A stretch of DNA of 64,000 bases from Shuttleworthella satelles DSM 14600 (GTDB taxonomy: Bacteria; Bacillota; Clostridia; Lachnospirales; Lachnospiraceae): the NCBI RefSeq assembly GCF_000160115.1, contig NZ_GG665866.1:682001-746000 (forward strand). Direction: 5' to 3'. Of the stretch, positions 55,058 through 64,000 are shown in pieces. The notes below the pieces were generated by a model that made no database searches, was not told where the DNA came from, and was given only the letters and a program-made list of their open reading frames with translations. A program made the translations under genes and the position numbers. How positions within the stretch are numbered: position 1 is the stretch's first letter; each line of letters starts with the position of its first letter.

Positions 55058-55818
55058 TGACAATCCCTCCGCTGAAAGCAAAATGCACTGATCCCGGCAA
55101 CCACGAAAGAAGCTCCAAGAGATAAAAGCAGACCCGGCAGGAGTACCGAGGAATCCTGCAGAACATCGGAGGCATCCATCATAACACCGTTCGGGTTTAA
55201 CTGTAAGATAGGGCACATCATACGTATACTCCAGGCCCAGGGGGACAGATACCAGAAGGGCTTTGCGGCCAGCGCAATTCCCGACACCATCCCTGCAAAT
55301 CCCATCCCCATACCGGCAAACATGCCCTTCCATGCTGCAATCCACAGCTGGAGCGGGATCAGTGCCAGGGATGTAAACCACGAGAAGAAAACAGCCAGCA
55401 GAATTTTGCTCCAGGGAATGGCCCACTTCCCCTCTGTCACTGTGATCAGACCGGAAAAGATCGTCGCGATAAGCAGAACCATTGATGTGACGAGCAAGAA
55501 GATCGACATGACAAGGACTTTGTCAATCCACAGGCGCCAGGGTGCACAGGCACGCACGCGCAGGCCGCGATAATTTCCGGCCCTCTTTTCCTGCAGGTCA
55601 ACCAGATAGGCAAGTAAGGCAATCCCAAAAGGCAAAAAGGCAACCGTCCAGAGATTAAAGACCATGGAGATCACATTCTCCCATTTTCTCACCACCCCGG
55701 CCGGCATAAGCCAAAGACTCGGCAGAGCCTGCAGGACAAAGAAAAGAGGGAGTAGCACAAGCAATTTCTCTGTCATTGTTCTCCTGTATTTCAGCAGTTC
55801 TGACGACAAGCCCCTCAT
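55054..55818 (-). CDS. ABC permease, LanE/MutE-like
   Basis: A 254-residue permease with six hydrophobic segments and an N-terminal GLSSELLKYRRTMTEKLL. It overlaps the ATPase gene (ATGA) and the second permease gene, so the three are translated as a unit. The family removes lantibiotics and other cationic peptides from the membrane. Confidence 0.87.
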   Translation of the reverse strand: MRGLSSELLKYRRTMTEKLLVLLPLFFVLQALPSLWLMPAGVVRKWENVISMVFNLWTVAFLPFGIALLAYLVDLQEKRAGNYRGLRVRACAPWRLWIDKVLVMSIFLLVTSMVLLIATIFSGLITVTEGKWAIPWSKILLAVFFSWFTSLALIPLQLWIAAWKGMFAGMGMGFAGMVSGIALAAKPFWYLSPWAWSIRMMCPILQLNPNGVMMDASDVLQDSSVLLPGLLLSLGASFVVAGISAFCFQRRDCQ

Positions 55819-56522
55819 AGCCGCCCTCCCTTTCTTATTCTGTCCATGAAGAAGGTCTCTAAATCTTCTTCATGATCCGGTTCTCCCTGGTAGACAAGCT
55901 GACCCCTGTCAATAATTCCAACTTCATCAACAAGCTGTTCCAGTTCAGACAGGATGTGGCTGGAAAGAATGACCGTCATTCCCTTCTTCGGGAAACCGGC
56001 GATCAATTCTCTGAGCTCTTGAATCCCGATCGGGTCCAATCCATTGGTCGGTTCATCCAATATCAGCAGCGATGGATCATTCAGCAGTGCCATTGCGATG
56101 CCCAGTCTCTCTTTCATCCCCATCGAAAATTGCGCAACACGTTTTGACCCCGTGTCCTTTAGGTCAACCGTATTCAATACTTCGTCGATCTTTTCCTTCG
56201 GAAGTCCCAGCAGCCTGGTATGCACCAGTAAATTCTCTCTTGCCGTCAAATTAGCGTAAAGAGCCGGTTCCTCAATCAGAGCGCCGATTTTGGCAAGATG
56301 TTCACGCCTCCAGTTCTCCCCGTCAAATAGAATCTGACCTTCGGTCGGACGCAGGAGTCCAAGAATCAGTTTCAGGCTTGTGGACTTTCCTGCTCCATTC
56401 GGTCCCAGGAGGCCATAGATACTGTTTCTCTTAATTTGCAGGGAAATCCCCCGCACCGCATATTGTCCTCCGAATTTCTTGGTCAGTTCTCTTGTCTCAA
56501 GAATATTGTCCCGCATCAACAT
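55815..56522 (-). CDS. ABC transporter ATPase, LanF/CprA/BcrA-like
   Basis: A 235-residue ATPase with Walker A GPNGAGKST (40-48), the unusual signature FSMGMKERLGIA that marks this lantibiotic/bacitracin self-protection subfamily, and Walker B LLILDEPTNGLDP. The ATG follows AAGGAAATATCT. First gene of a five-gene set (ATPase, two permeases, regulator, kinase) matching the nisin-responsive cpr locus of Clostridioides difficile in composition. No lantibiotic structural or modification gene is nearby, so it is defence, not production. Confidence 0.92.
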   Translation of the reverse strand: MLMRDNILETRELTKKFGGQYAVRGISLQIKRNSIYGLLGPNGAGKSTSLKLILGLLRPTEGQILFDGENWRREHLAKIGALIEEPALYANLTARENLLVHTRLLGLPKEKIDEVLNTVDLKDTGSKRVAQFSMGMKERLGIAMALLNDPSLLILDEPTNGLDPIGIQELRELIAGFPKKGMTVILSSHILSELEQLVDEVGIIDRGQLVYQGEPDHEEDLETFFMDRIRKGGRL

Positions 56523-56584
56523 AGATATTTCCTTCCAGAATCTTCTCGTATTACCATTGACAGCTACGATACATAAGACTTATC

Positions 56585-56605
56585 AAGAAATAATCATGAT
56601 TTCTT
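56585..56605. promoter_or_regulatory. Inverted repeat upstream of the LanF-like gene
   Basis: AAGAAAT and ATTTCTT flank AATCATG, about 65 bp upstream of the ATPase start. It may be the response regulator site; no convincing promoter boxes are aligned with it. Confidence 0.35.
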
Positions 56606-56679
56606 ATTTCCTGCAAAAAGGGGCTCATATCGACCGTTTCTTTTCTCTTTTTCAAGTTCCTTTCCAGATATCCGGCACT

Positions 56680-56712
56680 GAAAAAGAGACGGCTTTCGCC
56701 GCCTCTTTTTCA
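56680..56712. terminator. Bidirectional terminator between the LanF-like gene and murE
   Basis: AAAAAGAG and CTCTTTTT flank a CGGC-TTTC-GCCG stem. It ends the murE transcript on the minus strand, about 55 bp past the stop. Confidence 0.88.
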
Positions 56713-56767
56713 GATCTCGCCTTCATTTGACAAGACAGATGTCACTTCTTCCTCTTTCCTTCAACTC

Positions 56768-58303
56768 TCAATCTCCGGCAAGTCCTCCGTCATAGTCCGT
56801 CAGATACTTCCTGGCACAGTCGGCGTCAGAGGGACCCTTCTCATAGCCATTGGCCCTGCGGACCATAACCTCATGCCCCTTGCCCGCCAAAAGAAGCAGG
56901 GTCGGCTCCTTTGCCGCATGAATGGCCGTTCGGATAGCCTCCTTTCGATCGGGGATAATCTCATAGGGGGTGCCGAAGGGTTTGATATAGGAGGCAATCT
57001 CTTCGGCAATCCGGGTCGGATCCTCCCTGCCCGGATCGTCTTCCGTCAGATAGATATAGTCGGCATTGGCCGCCGCCACCTCTCCCAGGTCTCTTCTCCG
57101 GTTGATCGCCTTGCCTCCGGAAGCCCCGAATAGAGCCACAATCCGGCGGCCCGGGAATTCCTCTTTCGCTGCCGCGAAGAGCTTCTCGAAAGAGAGGCGG
57201 TTGTGAGCGTAATCGATAATGGTCACGATCTTGCCGTCGGCACTGGTATACTCCTCCATGCGTCCCGGCACCCGGGCCCTCTTCAGCCCCTCCTTCACGC
57301 AGTCGTATGGGATGCCATAATGCTCTGCCACAGCAATCGCCGCCAGGGCATTGGAGACATTGAAAAAACCAGGTATTCCTAGGATGTACTCTCTCTCCTG
57401 CCCGAGGACACGCGCCTTAAAATGGGTCTCCCTTCCCTGCTTCTTCATCCCATAACCGTAGACATCAGCCCTCTCGTCGGTCTCTGAAAAAGTGATCACT
57501 TTCCGCGCCTTCTGAGCCGCCGCAAGCATTTCCTCGGAGTGATCGACACCCAGGTGAACGACGGCTGTCCTGCACTGGCTGAAGATCCTGAGTTTGGAGG
57601 CAAAATAGTCCTCCCAAGTCGGATGCTCGATGGGGGAAATATGGTCATAGCCGATATTCAAAAATGCCGCCACATCGAACTGCACATCCAAAACCCGATC
57701 GTACTTGAGAGCCTGGGAGGATACCTCCATGGTCACATAGTCAAGACCCGCTTCCCTGGCGTTGGCAAAATGTTCCTCCAGTTCAATGGGCTCTGGGGTC
57801 GTCATGCGGGAGGGACGACTTTCCTTTCCGTCTTCCGTCAGGATCGTAGATATCAGCCCAGAGGGCCTGCCGCCCCGGCTCTTCTCATAAACGTCGAAAA
57901 TAGCCTTGAGGAAGAAGGCCGTCGTGGATTTGCCCTTGGTTCCCGTGATGCCGACCAGACGGAAGGCCTCCCAGGGTCTGTCATAGCAGAAGCTGGCGCT
58001 GTGGGCCATGGCAGCGCGAATATCGCTGACCCCAATCCATGGCAGGTCGACCCCTTCATAGGGCTTCTCGCTCAGATAGAAGGCGGCCCCTCTCTCTTTG
58101 GCCATCCGCAGAAAGTCCTCCCGAAATCCGGCTCCCTTGCAGATAAAGAGTGTGCCCGGAATGACTTTTCTGGAGTCACAGGAGACCAGGGTGATTTCCC
58201 TCTGCAGGCTCTCTCCCAGGCGTTCGCCAAGCGTTTCCACGGTCTGACTCAGCAGACCGTGGCCCGCAAGCATTTGCAAATAATCGGCTAACAAGTGTTT
58301 CAT
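56768..58303 (-). CDS. murE: UDP-MurNAc-tripeptide synthetase, probably L-lysine-adding
   Basis: A 511-residue Mur ligase that adds the third amino acid to the peptidoglycan precursor. ATP loop GITGTKGKSTT (118-128), TTPEPIELE, MEVSSQALKYDRV and YAHNRLSFEKL are all present. At the position that selects the amino acid it reads EDDPGREDP (D422-G425), not the DNPR of diaminopimelate enzymes; Lys-type enzymes are reported to have D(D/N)P(N/A). It stands 12 bp after the D-aspartate ligase-like gene. The GREDP arginine one place later leaves some doubt. Confidence 0.9.
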   Translation of the reverse strand: MKHLLADYLQMLAGHGLLSQTVETLGERLGESLQREITLVSCDSRKVIPGTLFICKGAGFREDFLRMAKERGAAFYLSEKPYEGVDLPWIGVSDIRAAMAHSASFCYDRPWEAFRLVGITGTKGKSTTAFFLKAIFDVYEKSRGGRPSGLISTILTEDGKESRPSRMTTPEPIELEEHFANAREAGLDYVTMEVSSQALKYDRVLDVQFDVAAFLNIGYDHISPIEHPTWEDYFASKLRIFSQCRTAVVHLGVDHSEEMLAAAQKARKVITFSETDERADVYGYGMKKQGRETHFKARVLGQEREYILGIPGFFNVSNALAAIAVAEHYGIPYDCVKEGLKRARVPGRMEEYTSADGKIVTIIDYAHNRLSFEKLFAAAKEEFPGRRIVALFGASGGKAINRRRDLGEVAAANADYIYLTEDDPGREDPTRIAEEIASYIKPFGTPYEIIPDRKEAIRTAIHAAKEPTLLLLAGKGHEVMVRRANGYEKGPSDADCARKYLTDYDGGLAGD

Positions 58304-58314
58304 GGCATCTCTTC

Positions 58315-59535
58315 TTACTTCTGCTTCTCATAGTAGCTGGCGAACTTCTTCACATGGCTGCGCAGATTATGCCATACCCACAGCTTATGATACCAGTTCT
58401 TCTCATCGGGTGAGATCAGGGAGTTGCTCACATGCCCCTCCTTCTCCATCCGCTTCATAAAAGCGTGGTATTTAGAAGGAACATAGTCATAGGAAACCTT
58501 TCGCGGAACCACTCTCCACAGGCTCTCCTTCTGACAGATCTCAAAACCGGTGTCAATCCCCTCGATCAGATCACTGACCCAGTACTTTGCCACATTATAG
58601 CCAGCTGCAGTCACATAGTAGTTGGAGCGTCCCTGACGGCAATTGATCTCGAAAACCTTATACTTGCCGTCCCTTTCATCGTACTTAATGTCGAAATTCG
58701 AGAAACCGGTGTAGTGGATCTCCTCCAGGAAATGTCGGATCTTCTCACAGAGCGTCCAGGACTGCCCATCCAGCTTCTCTGTGATGACAACAGCGTGGTT
58801 GCCTCTTCCGTGGGGTGTATGCTCTTCCAGAAGCGTGTGACCCAGGCACATCATCTTGACCCTGCCCTTCCTGTCGGAGTAACAGGTGAGTACCCGCATA
58901 TAGGAATCATCGCCGGGAATCATATCCTGGATCACCATGGTGTCCGGATAACCGGCTGCGTAGCAGCGGTCTAAGACATCCAAAAGAGCCTCGCGATCCT
59001 TTAGGACGAAAACCTTGTCATTGCCCTGAAAAGGATGCCGCCAATAGAGAGCGGAAGAAGAAGGTTTGCAGATATAGGGAGGCTTGAAGGGAAGCTCAAA
59101 ATCATGCCCCATCTCCTTGCGATAAATGAAAGTCCCGGGATGATCTATGTCATACTTGTCCGCCAGCTCGTAGAAGTGCTCCTTGCGGATCAACTCTCCC
59201 ATCAGCCTGCTGTCAATATAAGGAACAATAACATTGTCCGGGTACTTGTCCCGATTGTCCGTCACCAGAAAGACATAGTCATCGGAACAGCCGATGGGCA
59301 TCACCTTACCGTCCCCGTGCTCCGCGGCGAAATCGCAGATCAGCCTGACCAGAGTCTCGGCCTTCTCCGCGTTCGCGTTGACCCGATAATCGATCAGACT
59401 GGACCGATAGGCCGGACCGGAGGGAAACTTGCCATAACAGGTTACCCTGATCCGATACTGCTCCCAGAAAGCTCTGGCGACAGAGTAGACATTGATATCT
59501 CCTCCGAAGAGGAGGGGGTAGAGTTTTTCTTTCAT
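58315..59535 (-). CDS. ATP-grasp ligase, probable D-aspartate ligase
   Basis: A 406-residue ATP-grasp enzyme. N-terminal FGGDINVYSVARAFWEQY, the segments VIQDMIPGDDSYMRVL and MMCLGHTLLEEHTPHG, and the metal-binding end YTGFSNFDIKYD and FEINCRQGRSN closely recall Aslfm, the Enterococcus faecium enzyme that couples D-aspartate to the side-chain amine of lysine in peptidoglycan precursors. The racemase and murE in the same run support this. The ATG of MKEKLYPL follows AGGTGATTTGC. Other carboxylate-amine ligases remain possible. Confidence 0.82.
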   Translation of the reverse strand: MKEKLYPLLFGGDINVYSVARAFWEQYRIRVTCYGKFPSGPAYRSSLIDYRVNANAEKAETLVRLICDFAAEHGDGKVMPIGCSDDYVFLVTDNRDKYPDNVIVPYIDSRLMGELIRKEHFYELADKYDIDHPGTFIYRKEMGHDFELPFKPPYICKPSSSALYWRHPFQGNDKVFVLKDREALLDVLDRCYAAGYPDTMVIQDMIPGDDSYMRVLTCYSDRKGRVKMMCLGHTLLEEHTPHGRGNHAVVITEKLDGQSWTLCEKIRHFLEEIHYTGFSNFDIKYDERDGKYKVFEINCRQGRSNYYVTAAGYNVAKYWVSDLIEGIDTGFEICQKESLWRVVPRKVSYDYVPSKYHAFMKRMEKEGHVSNSLISPDEKNWYHKLWVWHNLRSHVKKFASYYEKQK

Positions 59536-59591
59536 GCAAATCACCTGTTTACGCCGGGCAGACATCCTGCGTCGGCATCCTGAATCCTTAT

Positions 59592-59632
59592 GGAAGTTCC
59601 ATTGACCCCACGGGTCCTACTCTACAACTTCC
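59592..59632 (-). other. Nested hairpin in the leader of the ATP-grasp gene
   Basis: GGAAGTT pairs with AACTTCC and, inside, GACCC pairs with GGGTC around GTG. It lies about 60 bp before the start codon and has no T-run, so it may be a structured leader or an operator. Confidence 0.4.
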
Positions 59633-59746
59633 AACTGAGAAGGGCCTCATAAATATGACTTTTTCAATGCAGTCATACGTTTAAAGCCCAAGCTGAAAAG
59701 TTTCCGTTTTTTTGATCTTCCGCCGGAAATAAAAGCCTGCATTCTC

Positions 59747-60460
59747 CTAAACCAAAAGCGGCTTCAGACCAAAGAACTTAATGCACTCCTCGGCCAGAAC
59801 CTCCATGGCATCAATATAGAAAGAAGACAGACCATGGTATTCCCGATAAACCGATAATTCCGTACAGCCCAGAATTGCCCCGTCGCATCCTGCCTCCCTG
59901 ACTGCTCTGTCAATAGCGGCAAAGGTATGCCGGTTCCCCTTTTCTCCCGCTTTGATCTCATCGTAGATCAGGGACATGACCTTCTTCTGTGTCTGCGAAT
60001 CAGGCTCATAGGCCACGATTCCCGCCGCCTCCAGGGCCTTGCGGTAAACGCCCGTCACTATGGTTCCGTCTGTCGCCAGAATGGCCACCTTCTTCTTCCC
60101 CGCGTCTGCCAGCCTCAGGACGGTCCGGCGGGGCATATGAATGATGGGCACGGTCAGCTGATCCTGCAGACGATCTGCAAAGTAGTGAGACGTATTGCAG
60201 GGAATGGCAATGGCCGAGCAGCCACAGGTCTCTAATATCTTACAGTCCTTAAGCAGGCGTTCCTCTACCGGTCCCTCATCTCCCGACAAAATCGCCTCCG
60301 TCCGATCCGGCATCTGGGTGTCAGAATAAATCAGAGTCGGAATATGGTCCTGGTCGCGAGCGGCCGGGGTCCGGTCCAAAATCCACTGATAGAAGATCTG
60401 TGTGGCCTGAGGCCCCATACCTCCCAAAATCCCAAGTTTCCCTGTGAAAGCATCTGTCAT
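59747..60460 (-). CDS. Aspartate/glutamate racemase
   Basis: A 237-residue cofactor-free racemase. The N-terminal LGILGGMGPQAT is the family start and the two catalytic cysteines are in PCNTSHYF and LGCTELS. The first-half DTQMPDRTEAIL is typical of aspartate racemases. Together with the ATP-grasp ligase it would supply D-aspartate for the wall. It lies upstream of the ligase gene, separated by 210 bp. Confidence 0.9.
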   Translation of the reverse strand: MTDAFTGKLGILGGMGPQATQIFYQWILDRTPAARDQDHIPTLIYSDTQMPDRTEAILSGDEGPVEERLLKDCKILETCGCSAIAIPCNTSHYFADRLQDQLTVPIIHMPRRTVLRLADAGKKKVAILATDGTIVTGVYRKALEAAGIVAYEPDSQTQKKVMSLIYDEIKAGEKGNRHTFAAIDRAVREAGCDGAILGCTELSVYREYHGLSSFYIDAMEVLAEECIKFFGLKPLLV

Positions 60461-62451: not shown

Positions 62452-62491
62452 AAAAACACCCCAGGTGCGCCTTGCATGCGCGCCCAGGGTG
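62452..62491 (-). terminator. Regulated terminator of the thrS T-box
   Basis: CACCC pairs with GGGTG and GGGCGC with GCGCAC-C inside, followed by five T on the minus strand. The 5' arm follows the T-box sequence directly. Confidence 0.85.
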
Positions 62492-62735
62492 CTTCTTGCA
62501 CGGTTCCACCTAAGCTTTCACTCATTCTCCCGTAACGGGGGATACCGTCAGACCTTACACACCCGCTGTCACACATTCCCTGTCAAGAGATGACACAAGC
62601 TTGGGGTCTGAAGCTGTGGAGTGGTCTTGGCAGATTCCGAAACCCGGATGTCTTCCAGCCTTGGGCATCCTCTCTGACGAGTCCCTCTGGAATCTGTTAC
62701 TGTCTCCGTCAACGCCTTTGTCAATAAGTTCCTAC
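62452..62735 (-). promoter_or_regulatory. T-box riboswitch leader of thrS
   Basis: The T-box sequence TTAGGTGGAACCGTGC (62498-62513) is close to consensus. Stem I arms CAGATTC/GAATCTG and the AGAGAGGATG region are visible, and the 3' side carries CCAAGACCACTCC with ACC, a threonine codon followed by A, in the specifier position (about 62627). It should sense uncharged tRNA-Thr and fills the whole gap between thrS and the leuA-type gene. Confidence 0.9.
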
Positions 62736-62764
62736 AGTTTAGCTTTTGCGCCTTTTCTTGTCAA
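62736..62764 (-). promoter_or_regulatory. thrS promoter overlapping the end of the upstream gene
   Basis: TTGACA (62759-62764) and TAAACT (62736-62741) are 17 bp apart. The -35 box is inside the coding end of the LeuA-AraC gene and the TAA of the -10 box is that gene's stop codon. Confidence 0.75.
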
Positions 62765-64000
62765 CCGGGAGTCCGTTCTCCTTATTGCGATAGGCCAGGG
62801 GAGTCATGGCAAAGAGACGCTTGAAGGTGCGGTTGAAATGCTCGACATTGGCATAGCCTGACTCATAGGCGATGCTCTCCACCGTGGCGACGCCGTTCTT
62901 GAGCAGGCCCTTCGCTCTCTTCATCCGCTCTGCCGTCACATGCTCACCGAAGGTCTTGCCGGATTTTTCCCTGATGTATTTGGAGACATAGGGCTCTGAC
63001 AGGTGGAAGGTCTTTGACATGGTCTCCAGGGTGACATTCCGATAGTTCTTGCGAATAAAGTCGAGCATATCTGTAAGCCTTGCATCCGCACTCTTATCCT
63101 GCGCGGCGATCTTCGGCAGCTGGTTGACCGCGACACAGAGGGCATGGATTGAGGCAGTCAGAATATCCTCATTGATTCCCGCTCCCCAGAAATCCCTCTC
63201 GCTCGTAGAAATTCCCACGTAGGCAATTGCCTTGGAGGCAGACCCTCTTGACAGGGTATGCTCTTCGTAGGCAACCAGTTCATAGCTGACGCCGAAGAAT
63301 TCCTTCACCGCGTTGGAGGCCGCGTCCAGGCGTCCGTTCCCGATGGCCTCCACTTTGCTCACATGGTCTCCTCTGCGAATCTCTACCTGGGCGACAACCG
63401 CCTCCCCCATACGCTTGAACTCCGCGTCCTCGACCGCGAAATAGGGCATGGGGTCCACAAACCTGGCCCGAAAGGCCTTATAGACCTCGTCCGGCGACAG
63501 TTCCTGATGGGTCTCGTCGGATACCTGCTTGATGGCATAGCCCACGGACTCCTTCATCTTGGCGGGAAGGGTCAAGGCAAAGTTGTGCTGGAGGATATAG
63601 CTCACGCCGCCCTTGCCGGACTGGGAGTTGATGCGAATGACATCCTTATCATAATTGCGGCCGACATCCTTGGGGTCAATGGGCAGATAGGGAACCGTCC
63701 ATGGCTCGCCCTGCGTCTCTCTCTCTCTGGCTGCCATCCCCTTGGCGATCGCGTCCTGATGAGAACCGGAGAACGCGGAGAAGACAAGGTCTCCAGCATA
63801 GGGCTGGCGGGCAGGAACACGCATCTGTGTCAGGCGCTCATAGGTCCCCCGAACCTTCGGCATATCCGAAAAATCCAGTCCCGGATCGACGCCGTAGGAA
63901 TAGAGATTCATCGCCAAGGTCACAAGATCCACATTGCCGGTCCTCTCTCCATTGCCGAAGAGTGTCCCCTCAACGCGCTCCACTCCCGCGAGGCAGCAGA
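62739..64000 (-). CDS. leuA: 2-isopropylmalate synthase C-terminal part fused to AraC-type HTH domain (N-terminus beyond window)
   Basis: The frame is open to the window edge (the visible part begins CCLAGVERVEGTLFGNGERT). Residues counted from the in-frame GTG at 63983: 1-170, end of the catalytic barrel and linker of 2-isopropylmalate synthase with LFGNGERTGNVDLVTLAMN, SGSHQDAIAKGM and SGKGGVSYIL; about 185-295, the leucine-binding LeuA_dimer domain with GNGRLDAASNAVKEF, AYEEHTLSRGSASKA and WGAGINEDILTASI; about 305-405, a complete AraC-type double HTH with LETMSKTFHLSEPYVSKYI, AERMKRAKGLL and SGYANVEHFNRTFKRLF, TPLAYR. No frame break is seen. The fusion is unusual. thrS follows but has its own promoter. 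Confidence 0.93.
   Translation of the reverse strand, partial: CCLAGVERVEGTLFGNGERTGNVDLVTLAMNLYSYGVDPGLDFSDMPKVRGTYERLTQMRVPARQPYAGDLVFSAFSGSHQDAIAKGMAARERETQGEPWTVPYLPIDPKDVGRNYDKDVIRINSQSGKGGVSYILQHNFALTLPAKMKESVGYAIKQVSDETHQELSPDEVYKAFRARFVDPMPYFAVEDAEFKRMGEAVVAQVEIRRGDHVSKVEAIGNGRLDAASNAVKEFFGVSYELVAYEEHTLSRGSASKAIAYVGISTSERDFWGAGINEDILTASIHALCVAVNQLPKIAAQDKSADARLTDMLDFIRKNYRNVTLETMSKTFHLSEPYVSKYIREKSGKTFGEHVTAERMKRAKGLLKNGVATVESIAYESGYANVEHFNRTFKRLFAMTPLAYRNKENGLPVDKKRRKS

Follow-up and report, generated by a model that had tools for sequence, protein, structure and literature searches.

A 2-isopropylmalate synthase fused to an AraC-type DNA-binding domain, a probable regulator of its own leuA promoter in Lachnospiraceae

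The window analyzed here is a stretch of 64,000 nucleotides from the genome of Shuttleworthella satelles DSM 14600 (contig NZ_GG665866.1). At its right edge, positions 62739-64000 (-) carry the 3' part of a leuA-araC fusion gene, as read from the open frame and the whole-genome sequence. This part holds codons 258-676 and the stop codon. The whole gene occupies G000:C5:744742-746769(-) plus the stop codon and consists of 676 codons with an ATG start and no internal stops; 769 of its bases, up to G000:C5:746769, lie outside the window. The first-pass annotation had described one frame joining the end of the synthase, its leucine-binding domain and a full AraC domain with two helix-turn-helix (HTH) units, and had suggested a domain search with the full protein. 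Both the whole-genome open reading frame and Pfam bear this out, since HMGL-like, IPMS_D2, LeuA_dimer and HTH_18 were found in one chain (protein P0001, 676 amino acids). The HMGL-like catalytic domain covers residues 32-307 (E 3.9e-68); only its end falls in the window (63849-64000, -), with the bulk beyond. It is followed by the post-catalytic IPMS_D2 domain at residues 327-394 (63588-63791, -; E 6.2e-33) and the allosteric, leucine-binding LeuA_dimer domain (PF08502) at residues 426-551 (63117-63494, -; E 1.7e-21, 76.9 bits against a cut-off of 24.9). A linker between the Pfam matches (residues 552-584; 63018-63116, -), the first part of which is variable in the alignment, leads to the AraC-type HTH_18 domain at residues 585-662 (62784-63017, -; E 6.6e-19, 68.4 bits against a cut-off of 33.6). 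The HTH_18 match spans model positions 2-79 of 80, thus the two-HTH domain is complete. The protein also reaches the 2-isopropylmalate synthase subfamily model NF002991 (777 bits, cut-off 455) and stays below the cut-off of the equivalog model TIGR00970 (647 against 697). The closest solved structure by sequence is LeuA of Mycobacterium tuberculosis (1SR9).

Between leuA-araC and thrS, a T-box leader was seen at 62482-62721 (-) with 63.9 bits (E 1.7e-13), which is below the Rfam cut-off of 93. Further along the window, at 55815-60460 (-), the translations read as an ABC transporter ATPase, a MurE-like ligase, an ATP-grasp protein and an aspartate/glutamate racemase.

The spread of the fusion, which the first-pass annotation had proposed to map, was determined in 299 sampled genomes of the window's family. 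A full-length fusion, counted when the match ran from query residue 1-5 through residue 662 or further, was present in at least 67 of them, that of S. satelles included, and in each of these 67 genomes the open reading frame is single and at least 662 codons long. Named carriers include Roseburia inulinivorans DSM 16841, R. porci, Eubacterium ramulus, E. uniforme ATCC 35992, Lachnobacterium bovis and Suipraeoptans intestinalis; carriers were also found in other phyla (see below). Sequencing or assembly error is excluded for the family because the frame is single in 67 genomes and in named isolates. Two genomes do have the AraC domain in an overlapping, out-of-frame open reading frame at the end of leuA (L151:2724-3080, -, in G061; L237:695-1045, -, in G077), the latter with an A-run at the overlap, and both retain the operator described below. 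These split frames could reflect a programmed frameshift, separate translation or a sequencing error. One fused protein (L143, in G239) has a decayed HTH and its gene lacks the operator. A T-box-like element was noted at this locus by a crude motif. These three cases are what could be cited for an artefact of assembly or frame, or for a decaying fusion devoid of function. Against them stand the single frame in at least 67 of the 299 genomes and in the named isolates, and the conserved HTH columns. For the family as a whole the artefact reading is refuted, and the chance that artefact or decay accounts for the fusion is negligible.

Loss of the HTH positions in all homologues had been named in advance as evidence against the fusion. 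Instead, the positions of both HTH units are strongly conserved in an alignment of 132 fused proteins (132 of 133, the contig-truncated L108 being left out). An AlphaFold2 model of the R. inulinivorans homologue, computed from a 28-row alignment (mean pLDDT 76.7, pTM 0.52), has seven helices at residues 561-661, with block pLDDT values of 77-89 over the HTH; residues of about 322-386 are poor and the relative placement of the domains is not interpretable in this model. In a Foldseek search, the best 50 matches were all LeuA or related enzymes, with no AraC proteins among them. The AraC assignment of the HTH rests on Pfam together with the modelled helices.

The synthase part was compared with M. 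tuberculosis LeuA at Arg80, Asp81, Glu218, His285, His287, Asn321, His379 and Tyr410, which we take to be its metal and catalytic residues. No substitution at any of them occurs in the alignment, neither in the 132 fused nor in the 43 unfused proteins, and the best reading is that the fused protein is catalytically intact. The fused protein is the sole protein with a LeuA_dimer domain (PF08502) in 27 of the 30 fused genomes examined for this, S. satelles included, and in six of nine named genomes. In the other named genomes, those of R. porci, E. ramulus and Ruminobacter amylophilus, a second LeuA_dimer protein without HTH was found; the open reading frame of R. amylophilus has 518 codons. A second LeuA without HTH, about 50% identical to the query, was likewise seen in addition to the fused one in G022, G373 and G509. 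A leuC homologue was present in 30 of 30 fused genomes tested. Because most genomes have no other PF08502 protein, we infer that in most of them the fusion must be the working synthase, provided that leucine is made by this route.

A common site is recognizable by eye in the upstream regions of the best-matching fused genes. This candidate operator is 40 bp long and consists of two half-sites of about 17 bp, GATTAAA.T.AATCA.T, arranged as a direct repeat with an offset of 23 bp. A 40-bp weight matrix was trained on the loci of the sampled family genomes and applied to the 900 bp upstream of each gene, where a score of 15 bits or higher counted as a match. Altogether 191 leuA loci were read; after removal of three unparsable loci and 12 duplicate proteins, 176 remained, 133 fused and 43 unfused. 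L132 and L143 were assigned to the fused set by length and L108 by context. Held-out loci were the named ones. In the pattern search for these, at least 568 of 590 stretches encode relatives of the HTH query, and the best 80 loci were taken. The operator was found at 60 of 67 training fused loci (one of 68 had fewer than 60 bases upstream and was left unscored) and at 62 of 65 held-out fused loci; the two sets share ancestry, as only identical proteins had been removed. Among unfused leuA loci it occurred in 2 of 43, and these two are the frame-split loci L151 and L237. Shuffled upstream regions gave mean scores of -13 to -15 bits. The site lies in gene orientation in 120 of 122 fused matches, with L006 and L197 reaching 15 bits on the opposite strand only. 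In the S. satelles genome the site lies beyond the window at G000:C5:746858-746894 (-). It scores 22 bits, weaker than most, and is the sole match of the site-specific pattern in that genome.

Seven training loci have no 15-bit site (L010, L015, L140, L142, L143, L144 and L147), and in six of them the HTH looks intact by reading. Two of the held-out misses, L211 and L225, have sites of 43 and 42 bits about 1.3 kb upstream, ahead of an intervening open reading frame. The third, L159, has only a 12-bit match on the opposite strand, while the -10 element and an inverted half-site remain by reading. A scan with a degenerate pattern gave a match in 50 of 67 fused genomes; as counted from the table, the match lies beside leuA in 41 of these. 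The pattern also matched 22 of 67 genomes listed as unfused, where it lies beside leuA only in G162. The G162 gene is broken off within the linker/HTH by the end of its contig and is therefore taken as a cut fusion. In 258 loci chosen independently of the pattern (1.62 Mb, some places counted twice), all matches of at least 15 bits precede leuC, ilvB or a leuA that is fused or frame-split. An explanation of the site by operon structure or synteny was dropped: clustering of neighbours at 102 loci gave no cluster of more than 11 members, and since the neighbouring genes are not conserved, the operator is more than synteny. Covariation between HTH residues and operator bases (101 non-redundant of 113 sites) was dropped as well. 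LeuA residues used as control scored nearly as high, with a best Z of 34 (41 for the HTH) and a median of 6.4 (8.3 for the HTH). The signal is thus uninformative and reflects mostly shared ancestry in two clades. We infer from the association of site and domain that the fused HTH binds the predicted operator.

Outside the family, a class-level sample contained the fusion in 3 of 245 genomes, two from family f13 and one from f72, and all three have the operator (36, 31 and 46 bits). A phylum sample of 249 genomes revealed no fusion outside the window's family at E <= 1e-250. Further carriers are the gammaproteobacterium R. amylophilus DSM 1361, two metagenome-assembled genomes (MAGs) from its group, and a MAG of Mailhella; for R. 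amylophilus and Mailhella the fusion is supported by Pfam. In Ruminobacter and the two related MAGs, fusion and operator are present together. Reading of the translations revealed a neighbouring open reading frame common to the three Ruminobacter-group loci, which disfavours contamination for this group. The loci of Ruminobacter and the Mailhella MAG that have the fusion with an operator are L201, L212, L190 and L197, and the sites are weaker there. Apparently, fusion and operator were transferred horizontally into Ruminobacter and a Mailhella MAG.

Alignment of 112 sites revealed an extended -10 element (TGTGnTAnnAT) at a fixed distance, with the hexamer 61 bases from the matrix start. No conserved -35 element was found in these sites, and the operator ends at the -35 slot. 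AraC activators of class II bind a site abutting the -35 slot, and the predicted operator/promoter arrangement is of this class II geometry. The Ruminobacter promoters show the whole arrangement by reading. In addition, a third, inverted half-site was detected in 36 of 100 promoters versus 2 of 100 shuffled ones, mostly 78-95 bases from the start; in direct orientation the numbers were 10 versus 2. This third half-site follows directly after the -10 element, where bound protein would block initiation, and by reading it is found in the Ruminobacter promoters too. It would fit an autoregulatory repressor that, with leucine bound, spans the distance between the upstream pair and the inverted downstream half-site and closes the promoter. 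However, a clear third half-site is missing in 64 of 100 promoters, and a conserved pair ending at the -35 slot of a promoter that has an extended -10 but lacks a -35 is the usual layout of a class II activator. Among the rivals to activation, repression of this kind ranks first, and we regard it as possible but clearly the less likely mode.

To follow the history of the fusion, a tree of the LeuA part was calculated by a quick method with midpoint root (165 rows after dropping proteins 95% alike). The fused label requires 8 changes on this tree versus a mean of 38 after shuffling. The deepest split, fused versus unfused, is weak (SH-aLRT 77, midpoint root). The smallest clade with all fused proteins includes seven unfused ones, namely L151, L237, L235, L239, L244, L248 and L257. 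The last five have no operator and no HTH motif in the 700 bases downstream, and Rfam detected a T-box before two of them, L239 and L257. A test of independent pairs for HTH versus operator went in the expected direction, with three supported pairs (six on the unfiltered tree) and a median p of 0.25; it is underpowered, as three supported pairs cannot reach significance. Conceivably another regulator occupies the operator, and the fused HTH is structural or has an unrelated DNA-binding role. The few fused genes without a site could be read in this way. Yet the site accompanies the HTH, is absent where nested lineages lack the HTH, and is present along with it in proteobacteria, which makes a separate regulator improbable.

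Control by T-box was also compared. An Rfam T-box (RF00230) was found upstream of leuA at 16 of 20 unfused versus 3 of 20 fused loci tested (samples of 43 and 133 loci, respectively). A cruder motif gave 35 of 43 unfused versus 21 of 122 fused loci. Between T-box and unfused leuA, a Clostridiales-1 RNA was observed at L233:2922-3085 (-) and L234:2458-2616 (-).

The first-pass annotation had proposed binding to leu/ilv promoters. The promoter of leuA itself turned out to be the main predicted target, and the wider claim did not hold. In 30 fused genomes the site was absent at 28 of 30 leuC and 28 of 30 ilvB loci and present in two of 30 each. A general leu/ilv regulon was therefore rejected. 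Since few leuC or ilvB loci carry the site, autoregulation would be the common case, with a leu/ilv regulon in exceptional genomes. Degenerate pattern matches in fused genomes yielded additional operators before leuCD in G206 (34 bits), leuCDB in G215 (22 bits), a leuD/leuC-like pair in G201 (24.5 bits) and ilvBH in G190 (31 bits). An operator-like site from the same matches precedes trpB in G281 (L094:2957, 21 bits) and may be a chance occurrence. The other loci fetched for pattern matches scored below 15 bits, the leuA of G162 excepted. A further operator of 16.5 bits precedes ilvB of G231.

We propose that the fusion is a bifunctional trigger enzyme, i.e. a leucine-inhibited synthase with an AraC domain that acts on its own operator as an activator when leucine is scarce, and we hold this to be very probable. 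The C-terminal AraC domain would sit on the pair of half-sites next to the -35 position of the leuA promoter, and under leucine scarcity the protein would activate leuA transcription. Binding of leucine to the LeuA_dimer domain would inhibit catalysis and rearrange the dimer, and activation would end. This autoregulatory loop would replace, or add to, the tRNA-sensing T-box of most unfused leuA genes of the family, and in some genomes the promoters of leuC(D)(B) or ilvBH would be added to the regulon. The proposal draws on the apparently intact enzyme and HTH, the predicted operator and its geometry, the co-occurrence and co-loss of site and domain, and their joint presence in other phyla; leucine would be the effector and activation the presumed direction. 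It had been suggested beforehand that a single protein makes the leucine precursor, is inhibited by leucine and switches genes. All three properties find support in the sequences, with the response of the switch to leucine being the more conjectural part.

The effector might instead be a substrate or product of the enzyme (2-ketoisovalerate, acetyl-CoA or 2-isopropylmalate), in which case the regulator would monitor flux at the active site. All catalytic residues are retained and their occupancy could be transmitted; yeast Leu3, for example, responds to 2-isopropylmalate. But the HTH is attached to the leucine domain directly, and leuA of the unfused relatives is mostly governed by T-boxes, which would sense the charging of tRNA. 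A non-leucine effector ranks next after repression among the rivals, and we consider it doubtful compared with leucine sensing by the fused activator.

Enzymes with DNA-binding domains are already known, among them Ada, BirA and PutA, and the LeuA-AraC protein is probably a further enzyme of the trigger type. Synthases of the M. tuberculosis/yeast type (NF002991; PDB 1SR9, 3FIG) share its catalytic, IPMS_D2 and LeuA_dimer domains and active-site residues; they stop at LeuA_dimer without a DNA-binding domain, whereas the fusion adds the HTH. Regulators of the AraC/XylS family (AraC, MarA, SoxS) resemble it in the two HTHs of HTH_18 and in a direct-repeat operator abutting the -35 slot. Their usual sensor is a non-enzymatic ligand domain, and in the fusion a whole LeuA enzyme takes its place. 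Escherichia coli Ada, which unites an enzyme and an AraC-type HTH in one protein and activates its own promoter, is similar in build, but it is a DNA-repair methyltransferase with a covalent signal and no biosynthetic end-product feedback. The trigger enzymes BirA, PutA and PepA are metabolic enzymes acting on transcription of their own pathway; unlike the fusion, they belong to other pathways and use other DNA-binding folds, with neither LeuA nor an AraC HTH. The T-box leader of leuA (RF00230) controls the same gene in sister lineages. It is an RNA element that reads tRNA charging, in contrast to the direct sensing by a protein proposed here. A count of companion domains of AraC/XylS regulators arrived at 106 (PMC5882156), and the main text of that paper contains neither "LeuA" nor "isopropylmalate". 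We found no description of a LeuA-AraC protein in the open-access literature searched, in agreement with the earlier remark that no described example was known.

If the proposal is true, a single polypeptide provides both kinds of feedback in the pathway: the same end product, acting through the same domain, would inhibit the enzyme and control the gene. A complete enzyme would thereby be added to the range of sensor domains read by AraC HTHs, and the protein would offer a ready-made leucine-responsive part for engineering. For the family, we slightly favor a picture in which this leuA autoregulator supplanted the T-box and moves between phyla together with its operator, as a self-regulating cassette of one gene; the inverted half-site downstream may let it work as an AraC-like loop switch for leucine. 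Gut bacteria would then provide a testable evolutionary swap on one gene, between an RNA sensor, the T-box, and a protein sensor.
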